A stretch of 46,619 nt of DNA from an uncultured bacterium (GTDB taxonomy: Bacteria > Patescibacteriota > Patescibacteriia > Patescibacteriales > UBA12465): NCBI GenBank assembly GCA_903874345.1, contig CAIQRY010000044.1:1-46619 (forward strand), given 5' to 3'. Positions 18,646 to 27,555 of this stretch are shown in pieces. The notes beneath the pieces were generated by a model. It made no database searches. It was not told where the DNA came from and was given only the letters and a program-made list of their open reading frames with translations. A program made the translations under genes and the position numbers. Each line of letters begins with the position of its first letter. Positions within the stretch are counted from its first letter, which is position 1.

Positions 18646-19665
18646 ATGAAGAAAATTATTCATCATTTAAAAACTCGCGAGGGGTTTTTGCGTATTGTTT
18701 TACCGATCATTTTAGTGATCGTCTTGATTTTGGTTGTTGCCTTCTCCCTTAACCATTCGAAAAAATTAAATCCGAATGAAGCGAAGACTAAGGCGGAAAC
18801 TTTCGTCAATACTTATTTGATGCAATCCGGCCAAAAAGCGACTATTAAAAATGTCGTTAAAGAATACGGCTTATATAAAATGACGATTGACATCACCTCT
18901 GGCGAAGTCGAATCTTATTTGACTCGCGATGGAAAATTATTCTTTCCGCAGGCTTTAGATATTGCAAAAATTTCTCAAGGCAAAGCAGCGACCACTGATA
19001 CAAAAGCCAACGCGGCCGCGGCTACGCCGAGCGCCACGGTATCAACTAAAAACAGCAAACCGAGCGTCGAACTCTTTGTGATGAGTTATTGCCCTTACGG
19101 CACGCAGATTGAAAAAGGCATCTTGCCCGTCTTAGCGGCCTTAGGAAATAAAATCGACTTTCAATTAAAATTTGTTGACTATTCCATGCATGGCCAAAAA
19201 GAATTATCTGAAAACTTAACTCAATATTGTATTGAAAAGGAACAGACCGCTAAATTACAGGATTACTTAAAATGTTTCTTGGTGGGTAGCGATTCCGCGA
19301 CTTGTCTTAGCCAAACTGGAGTTAACACTAGTAAATTAGCTACTTGCGTTTCCAAGACCGATAAACAATTTAAGATCACAGAAAATGCGACTAATAATGT
19401 TGGCTACCAAGGCAGTTACCCGGGCTTCGATATTAACAAAACTGATAATCAAAAATATAATGTTGGCGGTTCTCCGACTTTGGTTATCAACGGTCAACAA
19501 ATTGATGCCGCGCGCGATTCCGCTTCTCTCTTGAAGACTATCTGCAGCGCTTTCACAACCACACCGAGCGAATGCAACGCAACCCTGTCTAGCGCTTCTC
19601 CAGCTCCTGGTTTCGGGACTGGGACAGCGGCAAGTGGCAGCGGCGCGGCTGGTTGCGGACAATAA
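18646..19665 (+). CDS. membrane-anchored DsbA/GILT-like thioredoxin-fold protein with monothiol CPYG site
   Basis: The protein (339 aa) has an N-terminal membrane anchor (residues ~14-34, LRIVLPIILVIVLILVVAFS), a small domain (~42-110), and a low-complexity Ala/Thr linker (~112-137). A thioredoxin-fold domain follows: VELFVMSYCPYGTQIEKGIL (C149 of CPYG) through to the cis-Pro loop GGSPTLVING. The second active-site Cys of CxxC is replaced by Gly, but five further Cys follow in QYCIEKE, LKCF, TCLSQ, ATCVSK and ICSAF, then one in SECN and one in a Gly/Ser-rich tail ending GCGQ. It resembles GILT-type and DsbA-type oxidoreductases and should act outside the membrane. It is monocistronic. The substrate is unknown. 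Confidence 0.8.
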   Translation: MKKIIHHLKTREGFLRIVLPIILVIVLILVVAFSLNHSKKLNPNEAKTKAETFVNTYLMQSGQKATIKNVVKEYGLYKMTIDITSGEVESYLTRDGKLFFPQALDIAKISQGKAATTDTKANAAAATPSATVSTKNSKPSVELFVMSYCPYGTQIEKGILPVLAALGNKIDFQLKFVDYSMHGQKELSENLTQYCIEKEQTAKLQDYLKCFLVGSDSATCLSQTGVNTSKLATCVSKTDKQFKITENATNNVGYQGSYPGFDINKTDNQKYNVGGSPTLVINGQQIDAARDSASLLKTICSAFTTTPSECNATLSSASPAPGFGTGTAASGSGAAGCGQ

Positions 19666-19685: not shown

Positions 19686-19715
19686 AAAAAGACGAGTCTA
19701 TCGGCTCGTCTTTTT
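19686..19715 (+). terminator. terminator of the DsbA/GILT-like gene
   Basis: A stem AAAAAGACGAG / CTCGTCTTTTT around an 8-nt loop, T-rich on both sides. It insulates the downstream HTH-ATPase cassette. Confidence 0.9.
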
Positions 19716-19732
19716 ATATCATATATATAGGC

Positions 19733-19777
19733 CTCAAAACTATTGACTTTTTAAGACAAAAATAGTAATGTTTTGAG
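19733..19777. promoter_or_regulatory. inverted-repeat operator candidate around the HTH-ATPase promoter
   Basis: Perfect 8-bp arms CTCAAAAC (19733-19740) and GTTTTGAG (19770-19777), 29 bp apart, bracket the -35 and overlap the -10 of the cassette promoter. Centre-to-centre distance is 37 bp, about 3.5 helical turns. This is the natural place for the cassette's own HTH protein to bind (inference). Confidence 0.5.
19743..19771 (+). promoter_or_regulatory. promoter of the HTH-GHKL ATPase cassette
   Basis: -35 TTGACT (19743-19748), 17-bp spacer, -10 TAATGT (19766-19771). It lies inside the 19733-19777 inverted repeat. Confidence 0.7.
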
Positions 19778-19831: not shown

Positions 19832-20575
19832 ATGAGAGATCTAAAAGTCCAGGAATGCCTGGAAGTATTTAAAAATGGAATATCCGCCAAGATGGCTGGA
19901 GACGGCCCGGGGTGGCTTAAGCGCTACTTTAAATTATCTGACCCATTTCTTCTGGAATCATGGCTAAGCGGCAAAAAAATACCGACCGGCCTGAACATGA
20001 TTAAAATGGCATACTATCTCCACAGAAATTCGTTTCCTGTGGTCGAATTAGCCTCCGCTACGCCGACTATCATACTAGTAATCAAAATACTGGCTAATGA
20101 TATTGCGACCCCCCGAGAGGCAACCGATGCTGTTGGTTATAAGGAAGAGTCTGATCTTTATAAAGTTCTGCTCGGCAAAAGAGGTTATTCTGACAAAGCT
20201 TATAACGCTATGCAGCTTTTTATTAAGCAATATTCTTCTAAAATTGCTCCGTCAGAAATGATGGGTATTCCTACTCATGATACTTCTACCGCTCTACCAA
20301 CGACCCCTTGCCCTAACCAGGATCAACTAACCATCGACCTGCTCCATACTATCGGCAGTATCGGCGTCTGTCTGGAACCACTCTTAAAAAAATTAACCGA
20401 GTCTACTCCCGAGGAAAGGCAAAATTTTCGCACTTCCTTAGGTACGGATGAACGCGGTTTGTTTCAGATGTCCAATGCCTTCTACCGGGTAGCCGGATTA
20501 ATGAACGCTCTGTGCAGTGAAAAAAGTTTAGGAAATTTCATAAGTAAAACCAAAAAACCAGATAACCATGCATGA
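19832..20575 (+). CDS. putative tandem helix-turn-helix DNA-binding protein, partner of the GHKL ATPase
   Basis: I do not recognise the family, but two segments look like XRE-type HTH units. The first is SDPFLLESWLSGKKIPTGLN followed by MIKMAYYLH (residues ~36-65). The second is DIATPREATDAVGYKEESDL followed by YKVLLGKRGYSDKAYNAMQLF (~90-132). A Thr/Pro-rich linker (~145-165) leads to a helical C-terminal part (DLLHTIGSIGVCLEPLLKKL). There is no signal peptide or membrane span. Its last 8 bases overlap the start of the ATPase gene, so the two are translationally coupled and probably interact. The operon promoter sits in an inverted repeat that this protein could bind. It could instead be a target-recognition subunit for the ATPase. 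Confidence 0.65.
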   Translation: MRDLKVQECLEVFKNGISAKMAGDGPGWLKRYFKLSDPFLLESWLSGKKIPTGLNMIKMAYYLHRNSFPVVELASATPTIILVIKILANDIATPREATDAVGYKEESDLYKVLLGKRGYSDKAYNAMQLFIKQYSSKIAPSEMMGIPTHDTSTALPTTPCPNQDQLTIDLLHTIGSIGVCLEPLLKKLTESTPEERQNFRTSLGTDERGLFQMSNAFYRVAGLMNALCSEKSLGNFISKTKKPDNHA

Positions 20576-22256
20576 ACTAACCATGAACTTCCATGCCGGC
20601 AATGCCTTACGAAACATTGCTGATAATTACCCAACTCTCAGTAAGGTTGTGCTCGAATCCATTCAAAACTCAATTGACTCCGGCGCCACCTTCATCAGTG
20701 TGTTCATTAACTATTTTGAGCGCGTTATAATTATCAATGACAATGGCTGCGGCATAAGCCCCTCTAAGATGGAGTCGGCTATGAAATCAATCTGCGAATC
20801 CAACAAGAAAGTGGGTTGCTTAGGTCAATTCGGAATCGGCTTGATGGCGCCCCTGGGTAAATGTGAAGAGTTTTTTATTACTTCTTCGCCGCGCCCGGGA
20901 CATAATGGCTATCACCGTTGGCATTTCGACTGCGAAAAGATTTTGGAAAGCAGCGAACTATCGAGAATTCCCGAGGAACCATTACCGGATTTTATCTTTA
21001 GCCAAACCGGGAGAGGTGCGCCTAATAGCCGCCCCGTTGACTGGCGGACTCAGGTAAAAATCAGGAAGTTCACCAAGGACAAGAGCATTAATAATATTAT
21101 TGTCTCCGATCTCCAGTCCCTGGTTCTCAATCAATTCTCCGAACCAATGAAAAAGCTGGGGACGAAAGTTAAAATTACCGCTCGCCGTAGCAAAGACAAG
21201 GATCACGACGAAAGCATCGCTTTCGTTGCCGCTGACTTTCAAGGCGAAAAGTTGCCCCCGATTATTTACGATGAGAATAAGCCAAGCCAGACCACTTTTC
21301 GTCTTTATCTCTCCCCTAAAACTACCCGGGGGCGTAAAGGTTTCATCCGGGTTGGTGTTGAAAACGACGCCTTTCGAATTCCAATGACGACGCTTGCAAA
21401 GTCAATCCGCGGCTTAGCCGAGGAAGAAACTTTATCCATTCTTCTTTCTGGAGCTTTTGAGGGCACCATCGACTCTCGCGCTTGTTCCTTACATACTAAC
21501 CGGAAGGAATTCCGGGAAAACGATGCCTTGATGACTTTTTGCCTGCACCTTAATTCCTGGGCGCAAAATCATGGCACCAAGCTCATCTTAAGTCTCAAAG
21601 ACGAACAACGCGATCTCCGTCTTCAGGCTGTCGGAGCTTATGTCTTGGTCAAAGTGGAAGAGGGCCTCATAGATATGCCCCACCTCCAGGGCCTGGTCAA
21701 AACTTTTAAAATCGGCACCATCGGTGTTGGTCATAAAGGCTTTGAAACAACAACTAAATTACAAGATTTCCCGACTAAGGCTGTCCGCCATAATTCGTCG
21801 GAGCATCATTCAAGTGACTCGGAAAATCTGACTAGCCAAACTACTCCCAACCACGGTAGCGGACAAAGCCACCCCGGACATATGCCTCTTACGGTTTCTG
21901 GTCCCAATGGCAATAAACGCAAAGTCGTTAAAGGGCACAGCACCGGACTACAAATTGCCTACGAGGAACTTCCCGGTAACGATCATCACTGGGAAATCGA
22001 TCCAGAAAGCGGTACTATCACTTTTAACATTAGGAGTGATATCTGGGCAAAAATGGAGCCCGTCGACAGAAATTTGATTCTGTATTTGCAATACTGCGTT
22101 ATCAAGGCCCTTGAGATGCTTCTCGAGCCCCCTGTTTCCCGAAACGCCCTTTATGAATTCCTGCAGCGGGAACTCAAAACAGCGGCCATGTTCATTATCC
22201 AGACTTGTTCTTTACAACCGCGGAAAGCCAAGGTTGAAGTCGGCAAACGACTGTAA
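20568..22256 (+). CDS. GHKL (Bergerat-fold) ATPase, MutL/MORC/HSP90-like, of unknown system
   Basis: The 562-aa protein opens with a complete Bergerat nucleotide pocket: motif I LESIQNSIDSGA (E30, N34), motif II NDNGCGIS (D58, G60, G62) and motif III GQFGIGLMAP (G86, G89, G91). This is followed by a likely S5-type transducer region (~200-350, with TRGRKGFIRVGV and SRACSLHTNRKEFREND). A low-complexity His/Ser-rich linker follows (~400-460), then a conserved-looking C-terminal domain (HHWEIDPESGTITFNIRSDI, LYLQYCVIKALEMLL). It has no kinase, endonuclease or topoisomerase catalytic motif that I can see. MORC-like ATPases of this build occur in bacterial restriction-type systems (family knowledge). 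The ATG at 20568 lies within the 3' end of the HTH gene. Confidence 0.8.
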   Translation: MHELTMNFHAGNALRNIADNYPTLSKVVLESIQNSIDSGATFISVFINYFERVIIINDNGCGISPSKMESAMKSICESNKKVGCLGQFGIGLMAPLGKCEEFFITSSPRPGHNGYHRWHFDCEKILESSELSRIPEEPLPDFIFSQTGRGAPNSRPVDWRTQVKIRKFTKDKSINNIIVSDLQSLVLNQFSEPMKKLGTKVKITARRSKDKDHDESIAFVAADFQGEKLPPIIYDENKPSQTTFRLYLSPKTTRGRKGFIRVGVENDAFRIPMTTLAKSIRGLAEEETLSILLSGAFEGTIDSRACSLHTNRKEFRENDALMTFCLHLNSWAQNHGTKLILSLKDEQRDLRLQAVGAYVLVKVEEGLIDMPHLQGLVKTFKIGTIGVGHKGFETTTKLQDFPTKAVRHNSSEHHSSDSENLTSQTTPNHGSGQSHPGHMPLTVSGPNGNKRKVVKGHSTGLQIAYEELPGNDHHWEIDPESGTITFNIRSDIWAKMEPVDRNLILYLQYCVIKALEMLLEPPVSRNALYEFLQRELKTAAMFIIQTCSLQPRKAKVEVGKRL

Positions 22257-22275: not shown

Positions 22276-22305
22276 AAAAGGTCGGTCTTATAACCGGCCT
22301 TTTTA
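22276..22305. terminator. bidirectional terminator between the ATPase cassette and gdhA
   Basis: A stem AAAAGGTCGGT / ACCGGCCTTTT around CTTATA (one G-U), with T-tracts on the plus side and A-tract pairing on the other. It closes both convergent units. Confidence 0.8.
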
Positions 22306-25776: not shown

Positions 25777-27555
25777 TTAGCCCAAGTATTCCTTATAACG
25801 ATAATCAGCTCCGCCCTTATCTTTCGTCCGCTTAAGTTTTAAGCAACCATCGCATTGCCCGCAGTCGGCCGGATGATGATCACCGAAATATTTCAAGATA
25901 TAGCCCTGACGGCAGCCGAGATGATAAACATAGTTTTCCATCTCATCAAGTTTCTCATAAGCCCGGGACGCTTTGGCTTTTAAGGCCTTAAAATCTAAAT
26001 TTAAATCTTCGGGCATGACTAATTTTAGAACCCTAATTTCCGTACCGCGAAAAGGCGGTTTATATTCGACTAAATCTTTTTCGGCTAATTTCTTAATCGC
26101 CCGAAGTAACGAATCTTTTTTTACTTTTAAAACAATGGCTACTTCCTCCGGATTAAATTCCCAACCTTTTACTAAATCATGATGATATTTCTCGCCAAGC
26201 TTCTCGACAATCTCAATCTGACTCTTGGCGCGCTTGCCTAAAGACGCGGCCACTTCCGCCCAATCTTTTTTTGTTTTTAAATAAGAATTCGAATTTTTTT
26301 CATTCGGCCGGCTGATATAACCCTCTTTTTCTAAAATTTTAAGCGCGGTACCAATGGCCATTTCCGGGACCGAATCCGATAAATTCTGAGCGATTTCGGC
26401 GTAAGTAATTAGAATGGACGCTTCCGGATCGATTTCCATTTCCGCTCGTCGCCGCAAAAAATCATAAATTTCTAGAATAATCGCCGGGTCTGGATTATCG
26501 CCTTTGATAAAAAACTCCCGCAAATAGCGATCTTGCTGATGATAGAATAATAAACAAAAACTTGGCTTCCCATCGCGCCCGGCGCGCCCCGCTTCCTGAT
26601 AATAAGCTTCAATTGTCCCCGGCAGATCAAAATGAATAACAAAACGAATATCTTTTTTATTAATTCCTAAACCGAAAGCGTTAGTCGCCACGACAACTTG
26701 CGCCCGCCCTTTCATAAACTGTTCCTGAACCCAATTGCGACTGTCCGTATCCATGCCGGCGTGATAAGCCACGGCTTTAATATCGTGATCGGTTAAGGCT
26801 TCCAAAATTTCGTCAGCCTTGGCTCGCGTCCCAACATAAATAATACCGGTGCCTAAATCTGGATTAGTCGTTAAGATATTTAAAACATTTTCTAGCTTCT
26901 GACCGTTACTCGCTGGCACAACCGCAAACTGCAAATTCGGACGAGCAAAACCAGTAATAACAATATCCGCTTCTTTTAGATTTAATTGTTTAATAATATC
27001 GTCGCGTACTTCCGGCGTGGCCGTGGCAGTTAAAGCCACAACGGTCGGTGAACCAACAAAACGAATCGCGTCCTTGAGTCTTAAATAACTCGGCCGGAAA
27101 TCATGACCCCATTGACTGATACAATGCGCTTCGTCAATCGCGAACAAAGAAACTTTGATGTTTTTTAATTCTTTAGTGAACAGTTGATTATAAAAACGTT
27201 CCGGCGCGATATAAACTATTTTATAAATTCCCTCTTTAATTTGTCCTAACCTTTTTTCCGTTTCCGCGGGCGAAATAGACGAATTAATAAAAGTGGCCGG
27301 GATGCCAACGTGTTCTAAAGAGTCAACCTGATCTTTCATGAGCGCAATGAGCGGCGAAATCACAATTGTCACGCCCTCAAGAATCAGAGCTGGTAATTGA
27401 TAAATTAATGACTTCCCGCCACCGGTGGGCAAAACCACAACTGTGTCTTGATGCCCTAAAATGTTATCAATTGCTCTTTCTTGCCCAGGCAAAAAAGATT
27501 CATATCCGAAATGAATCTTTAATAACTCCTTTAATTGTTGCTTTTTCGTAACCAT
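25777..27555 (-). CDS. recQ: RecQ-family ATP-dependent DNA helicase
   Basis: This is a 3'-5' DNA helicase of recombination and repair. The 592-aa protein has motif 0 ([14 protein letters not shown]), Walker A ([16 protein letters not shown]), motif Ia, and DEAH box ([20 protein letters not shown]). Motif III ([14 protein letters not shown]) and motifs V/VI ([32 protein letters not shown]) follow. A winged-helix region comes next, and then the zinc-type Cys set at the C-terminus ([22 protein letters not shown]). There is no HRDC domain; a short form is common. The Cys-rich element sits after the winged helix region rather than before it as in E. coli RecQ. It probably heads a unit with the methyltransferase. 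Confidence 0.93.

Follow-up and report, generated by a model that had tools for sequence, protein, structure and literature searches.

A sporadically acquired gene pair of Patescibacteria combining a probable DNA-reading protein with a GHKL ATPase

Introduction

MORC and paraMORC proteins are found mainly in restriction-modification (R-M) operons, together with helicases and nucleases (Iyer et al. 2008, PMC2292703), and VcSduA is a Shedu protein that carries both a GHKL domain and a PD-(D/E)xK nuclease (PMC12137116). In the CapK-CapS regulators of immune operons, a GHKL kinase is combined with a STAS repressor (PMC13373217). MORC2 offers a precedent for a DNA clamp that compacts DNA (PMC12216690), and KorA-KorB a precedent for long-range silencing, in that case of plasmid RK2 (PMC11790492). 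Little is understood of the MORC-like GHKL proteins of prokaryotes, and Patescibacteria are scarcely named in the open-licence papers on anti-phage defence systems that we searched.

Here we analyze two adjacent genes, P1 and P2, in a stretch of 46,619 nucleotides from an uncultured member of the Patescibacteriota (the whole stretch is called the window below). The pair is an undescribed, sporadically acquired unit of Patescibacteria, and our search of the open-licence literature did not find it described. A minimal pair of this kind, without nuclease, helicase or methylase, raises the question of whether a GHKL clamp and a sequence reader are enough to silence bacterial DNA.

Results

Organization of the gene pair

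Reading of the open frames of the window gave two genes on the same strand that overlap by 8 bp, as had been noted in the initial annotation of this DNA. The pair and its surroundings are laid out as follows.

18646..19665, plus strand: thioredoxin/DsbA-like gene, left flank; not counted in the unit, delimits the empty site of relatives
19686..19715, plus strand: terminator-like hairpin of the upstream gene, with an 11-bp exact stem
19743-19771, no strand assigned: candidate promoter TTGACT-17-TAATGT, within 19733..19777 and framed by the inverted repeat CTCAAAAC/GTTTTGAG
19832..20575, plus strand: P1, 247 aa; predicted tandem XRE-like helix-turn-helix (HTH) domains, linker, C-terminal helices
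20568..20575, plus strand: 8 bp common to the end of P1 and the start of P2
20568..22256, plus strand: P2, 562 aa; GHKL ATPase, Hsp90/MutL-like middle domain, C-terminal extension
22276..22303, plus strand: terminator-like hairpin 3' of P2
22334..23560, minus strand: Glu/Leu dehydrogenase, right flank; not counted in the unit, delimits the empty site of relatives

The overlap likely couples translation of the two genes, and overlaps of 4 to 17 bp occur in several homologous P1-P2 pairs. The two reading frames are not a product of chance, as conservation of the pair extends to distant genomes. The initial annotation had described a self-contained two-gene unit with its own promoter and with terminators at both ends. 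The unit itself is supported, and hairpins were located on both sides, but the one at 19686-19715 ends the thioredoxin-like gene and is therefore a flanking element and no boundary dedicated to the pair; on the left, the inserted segment starts at this hairpin or beyond it. The promoter fared less well: although the TTGACT-17-TAATGT candidate is present, the promoter scan predicted none 5' of P1, and its yield did not exceed that of shuffled sequences. The inverted repeat around this candidate is possibly a P1 operator. A block reading ACTATTGACTT was found again 5' of the copy of the pair in another genome of the genus (G748, locus L014).

P2 is a GHKL ATPase outside the tested families

P2 carries the residues that define GHKL (Bergerat) proteins, namely the N-box Glu/Asn (E30, Q33/N34), DxGxG (D58-N-G60-C-G62) and GxxGxG (G86-Q-F-G89-I-G91). 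N34, D58, G60, G62, G86, G89 and G91 are invariant in 15 of 15 aligned P2 homologs, and position 30 is Glu in all 14 homologs that cover it. The complete pocket proposed earlier is thus confirmed, with every named residue in place and conserved. Pfam assigns the domain to HATPase_c_3 (E=1.7e-13, 51.2 bits, cut-off 25). In the structural model, the GHKL domain (~1-130) is followed by an Hsp90/MutL-like middle domain (~131-318), a long helix of 49 residues (319-367), a disordered linker of 75 residues (383-457) and a small C-terminal alpha/beta domain without family assignment (462-561). The best PDB matches of the model are to HtpG/Hsp90, followed by GyrB and MutL-type modules (E about 1e-12 to 1e-10), and profile searches match P2 to MutL, HtpG and MORC2. 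A conserved stretch around R312 may resemble the segment that bears the catalytic arginine in the middle domain of Hsp90. Neither Pfam nor the structure matches revealed a nuclease, TIR or other effector domain in P2; with its ATP site intact and no nuclease detected, the protein agrees with the earlier description of a GHKL ATPase devoid of nuclease motifs.

We also compared P2 with individual GHKL families. A histidine kinase, a housekeeping family with which P2 might have grouped, is excluded: HATPase_c scores 23.7 bits, under its cut-off of 26.4 (24 bits against 51 for HATPase_c_3), and there is no HisKA-type domain. The MutL equivalog model gives 28.9 bits versus a cut-off of 180, with a match confined to residues 26-73; the NCBIfam MzaB model gives 20.4 bits versus 850, and the sacsin model scores far under its cut-off. 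P2 is a member of the GHKL superfamily which, at full length, belongs to none of the tested families. In one homologous locus (L005:9694-11404, the same copy as L017), the P2 frame is broken near the N-terminal Glu, by either a frameshift or an assembly error.

Among described proteins, MORCs and paraMORCs share with P2 the GHKL domain, an S5-like middle module (in P2 from the predicted structure), an intact ATP site, a C-terminal extension and a sporadic, laterally mobile distribution. In contrast to the R-M loci of MORCs and paraMORCs, SFII helicase, methylase and nuclease genes are not recurrent neighbours of P2 (within 5 kb, 15 loci); P2 has instead a constant partner with probable tandem HTH domains, and a full-length match to a described family is absent. 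MzaB of the MZA anti-phage system also has an N-terminal GHKL domain (PADLOC MzaB E=1.1e-6), but only this part matches P2, and P1 has no PADLOC match. VcSduA combines its GHKL domain with a clamp-like middle domain, as P2 does, but carries a PD-(D/E)xK nuclease, whereas none was detected in P2.

P1 is probably a DNA-reading protein

The AlphaFold2 model of P1 (pLDDT mostly 87-97 from residue 31 on) displays two separate helical bundles (~25-65 and ~78-133), a disordered linker (145-165) and C-terminal helices (168-240). The sensible Foldseek matches are of XRE type (for example C.BclI, DdrO and CapH); they are weak and none is significant, the best, to C.BclI, having a probability of 0.84. 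The Pfam search of P1 gave no hit, and HTH_3 was weakly matched in two of 11 P1 relatives. Thus, the two HTH-like segments proposed initially find a counterpart in the two bundles of the model and in its XRE-type matches, but not in any significant sequence or Foldseek match. The two halves of the HTH region have net charges of +5 and 0, from which DNA binding is not obvious. Judging from the model, P1 is probably a DNA-reading protein with two XRE-like HTH domains.

The pair is rare, sporadic and consistently linked

P2 was found in four of 380 genomes drawn across the phylum, five of 381 genomes of the class, two of 16 members of the genus and two of 39 members of the family, and two further families gave 2/21 and 1/101; these draws overlap and their counts are not additive. 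A profile scan of genome contigs returned ten long P2 matches and six restricted to the GHKL part, and all long matches in named groups are of Patescibacteria type. Candidate relatives outside Patescibacteria (ANME-2, Methanothrix, another Euryarchaeota, Fibrella, Myxococcales and Nitrospiraceae) cover the GHKL part only and are without P1. P2 gave no match in phage or plasmid records at E 1e-5.

At every Patescibacteria P2 locus with upstream sequence, P1 lies directly before P2, with gaps of -17 to +68 bp in the ten loci measured; at L037, P1 is in first position and P2 reaches the contig end. Neighbouring genes vary between P2 loci, save for shared synteny in two Saccharibacteria and in family f10. 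In the two Saccharibacteria (L022 and L006, the latter being the same copy as L021), the pair directly follows groEL, and in family f10 a P-type ATPase gene lies upstream. According to the initial annotation, its defence-type reading would fall if the pair were a core gene in fixed context; the pair withstands this check, being sporadic and in contexts that change. A third conserved partner, also raised there, was not found: none follows P2 in the window, and the products of the genes after P2, of 225 aa in L005 and 288 aa in L007, are unrelated to each other.

P1 diverges faster than P2. Mean identities are 21% for P1 and 31% for P2, with values of 51% versus 87% between L021 and L022, and 21% versus 51% between the window and L014. 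The distance matrices of the two proteins correlate (Mantel r 0.75, p 0.0002), which may come in part from shared descent. Faster divergence of P1 and correlated distances would fit a recognition subunit with a co-evolving effector.

In the window, 2,668 bp separate the thioredoxin-like gene from the dehydrogenase gene, a clean insert of ~2.7 kb; the same two genes are 68-129 bp apart in eight genus mates, which represent the empty site. In five further genomes of the genus, the dehydrogenase match was absent. No target-site duplication was found at the edges of the insert. In G748, the pair lies on a different contig from the two flank genes, and was therefore gained independently or relocated. 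The best explanation is that the pair was horizontally acquired, as part of an overall reading that we hold tentatively. In two more genomes of the genus, a different single gene is found at this intergenic position (L073:2935-3684 and L074:2825-3376), and the site may be a preferred place of insertion.

P1 relatives also pair with a ParB-like protein

A P1 profile detected relatives in 16 of 381 genomes of the class, with P2 present in only five of these. Where P2 is missing, the P1-like gene is followed in eight of 11 cases by a same-strand gene for a ParB-like protein of ~265 residues; one of the others is cut off by a contig end, and two are solo. The ParB-like partner carries a 'DGRHR' box, and its N-terminal part is collinear with ParB, for which hhalign gives 57% along 160 columns and 0.3-6% for controls. 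One member matches Pfam ParB_N (E=0.04), and a phage member, at L131, matches the ParB-like family phrog_1033 of PHROG (E=1.4e-6). These comparisons point, with moderate confidence, to a ParB fold, and the partner is likely another nucleotide-gated DNA clamp. The P1 proteins associated with it form a single tree group (support 97/91). P1-like relatives thus pair with either P2 or a ParB-like protein, so that one reader family is combined with two unrelated nucleotide-switch proteins.

The phage locus (L131:4249-5786) holds a P1-like gene followed by a ParB-like gene with a 4-bp overlap, on a 107-kb IMG/VR contig that encodes a tail sheath, DnaB, DNA polymerases and an adenylosuccinate-synthetase-like protein and stems from a large tailed phage. 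ParB-like relatives on three other viral contigs (L132, L133 and L134) have other proteins 5', and no P1-like neighbour is recognisable. Between the P1-like and ParB-like genes of L113, L114, L115, L117, L118 and L120 there is a small conserved ORF (~80-100 aa, NGxHGPYAVAR...KKRAGWRA), which had no Pfam match in the two members tested. The solo P1-like genes belong to family f10 (L122:7016-7699 and L123:5847-6440); by our own reading of the sequences, they lie near a P-type ATPase gene, as in the full cassettes of this family, which suggests loss of P2.

Discussion

We infer that the most economical reading of the pair is that of a reader, P1, and a clamp, P2. P1 would recognise specific DNA sites through its two predicted XRE-like HTH domains and use its helical tail to dock P2, putatively a homodimeric clamp, gated by ATP, of the GHKL/Hsp90-MutL-MORC type. 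ATP would close the N-terminal gate of P2 round the DNA brought by P1, and hydrolysis, through the catalytic Glu30 and residues of the middle domain, would reset it. Once loaded, the nuclease-free clamp could occlude or compact the marked DNA and thereby silence it, the target being most plausibly foreign or mobile DNA. This mechanism, acting in a horizontally acquired pair, is somewhat short of an even chance in our estimate; if true, it would extend the repertoire of Patescibacteria by an accessory DNA-control system. A DNA-reading subunit that recruits an ATP-driven clamp had been suggested in the initial annotation; that part is plausible and is strengthened by the ParB-like pairing of the reader family, but the neighbourhood, PADLOC, and phage and plasmid searches gave no specific support to the defence role attached to it.

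The ParB-type sister pairs make a reader plus a nucleotide-gated clamp a shared theme. The same reader family with a ParB-like partner offers a natural comparison of ATP-type and ParB-type clamps. KorA-KorB also joins a DNA-bound partner to a nucleotide-gated DNA clamp (PMC11790492), and it is the sister systems of P1 that have the ParB-like protein; in the window, by contrast, the candidate clamp is a GHKL ATPase, and silencing is its presumed role. A more doubtful proposal is that reader-clamp pairs form a general architecture, shared by Patescibacteria with at least one large phage, and that MORC-like and ParB-like clamps can replace each other in it as silencing effectors; if it holds, the clamp loaded by one tandem-HTH family would be a GHKL ATPase in some cases and a ParB-like NTP clamp in others.

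Other readings were weighed against the same data. An anti-phage role is possible, and the pair could be a dedicated anti-phage or anti-plasmid system and not a silencing clamp: P1 would detect a cue from an invader, and the GHKL protein would either signal to a toxic or blocking effector or constitute one itself. Its sporadic and mobile nature, the fast divergence of P1, the weak MzaB match of P2 and the GHKL domains of known defence proteins (VcSduA, PMC12137116; MORC/paraMORC R-M loci, PMC2292703) are in line with this. However, defence genes are not enriched within 5 kb of the 15 loci, where defence neighbours are not consistent, our searches found no nuclease, TIR or other effector domain in P2, PADLOC assigns the pair to no system, and P2 has no phage or plasmid match; we thus consider a dedicated defence system rather unlikely. 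The genes rIIA-rIIB of phage T4 present another GHKL protein beside an HTH-like one (rIIB adjoins rIIA, and its N-terminus is HTH-like by our own reading), RIIA proteins are among the structural matches of P2 (E 1e-10 to 1e-5), and the P2 profile aligns to the GHKL domain of T4 rIIA (hhalign 91%). That P1-P2 is a domesticated pair of this sort, for exclusion or counter-exclusion, is nevertheless very improbable: the likeness in sequence stops at the GHKL domain, and rIIB is not similar to P1 (3-5%), so homology does not extend to both partners.

Control of transcription, with P1 repressing its own and other genes and P2, as a GHKL switch of the kinase or chaperone kind, releasing or maturing P1, would follow the logic of CapS-CapK, which proves that pairs of a DNA-binding protein and a GHKL protein exist (PMC13373217). 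The probable HTH-GHKL pairing and the inverted repeat round the candidate promoter suit this idea, but the P1 model is nearly all helical, with no STAS domain or STAS hit, P2, by its HATPase_c_3/Hsp90-MutL type and its middle domain, differs from an anti-sigma kinase, and there is neither a conserved downstream gene to regulate nor a downstream immune operon; its probability is low. Partition or maintenance, the reader and nucleotide clamp forming a centromere-like stabiliser of an integrated or episomal element, draws on the ParB-like partner family, a member of which is encoded by a large tailed phage. Here the recurrent neighbour families include no ParA-like or mobile-element family, seven of seven tested genomes have a ParB above the Pfam cut-off elsewhere, and the cassette of the window is a lone two-gene insert, leaving this reading a slim chance.

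A defence-island context was also considered and set aside: a recurrent defence family is absent, and PADLOC matches are mostly generic. In the window, the strong DpdF/PsyrT matches of PADLOC probably arise by generic cross-match from a gene at 25777-27555, which we read as a RecQ-type helicase and which shares 80% identity with an ORF of L083 along 418 aa.
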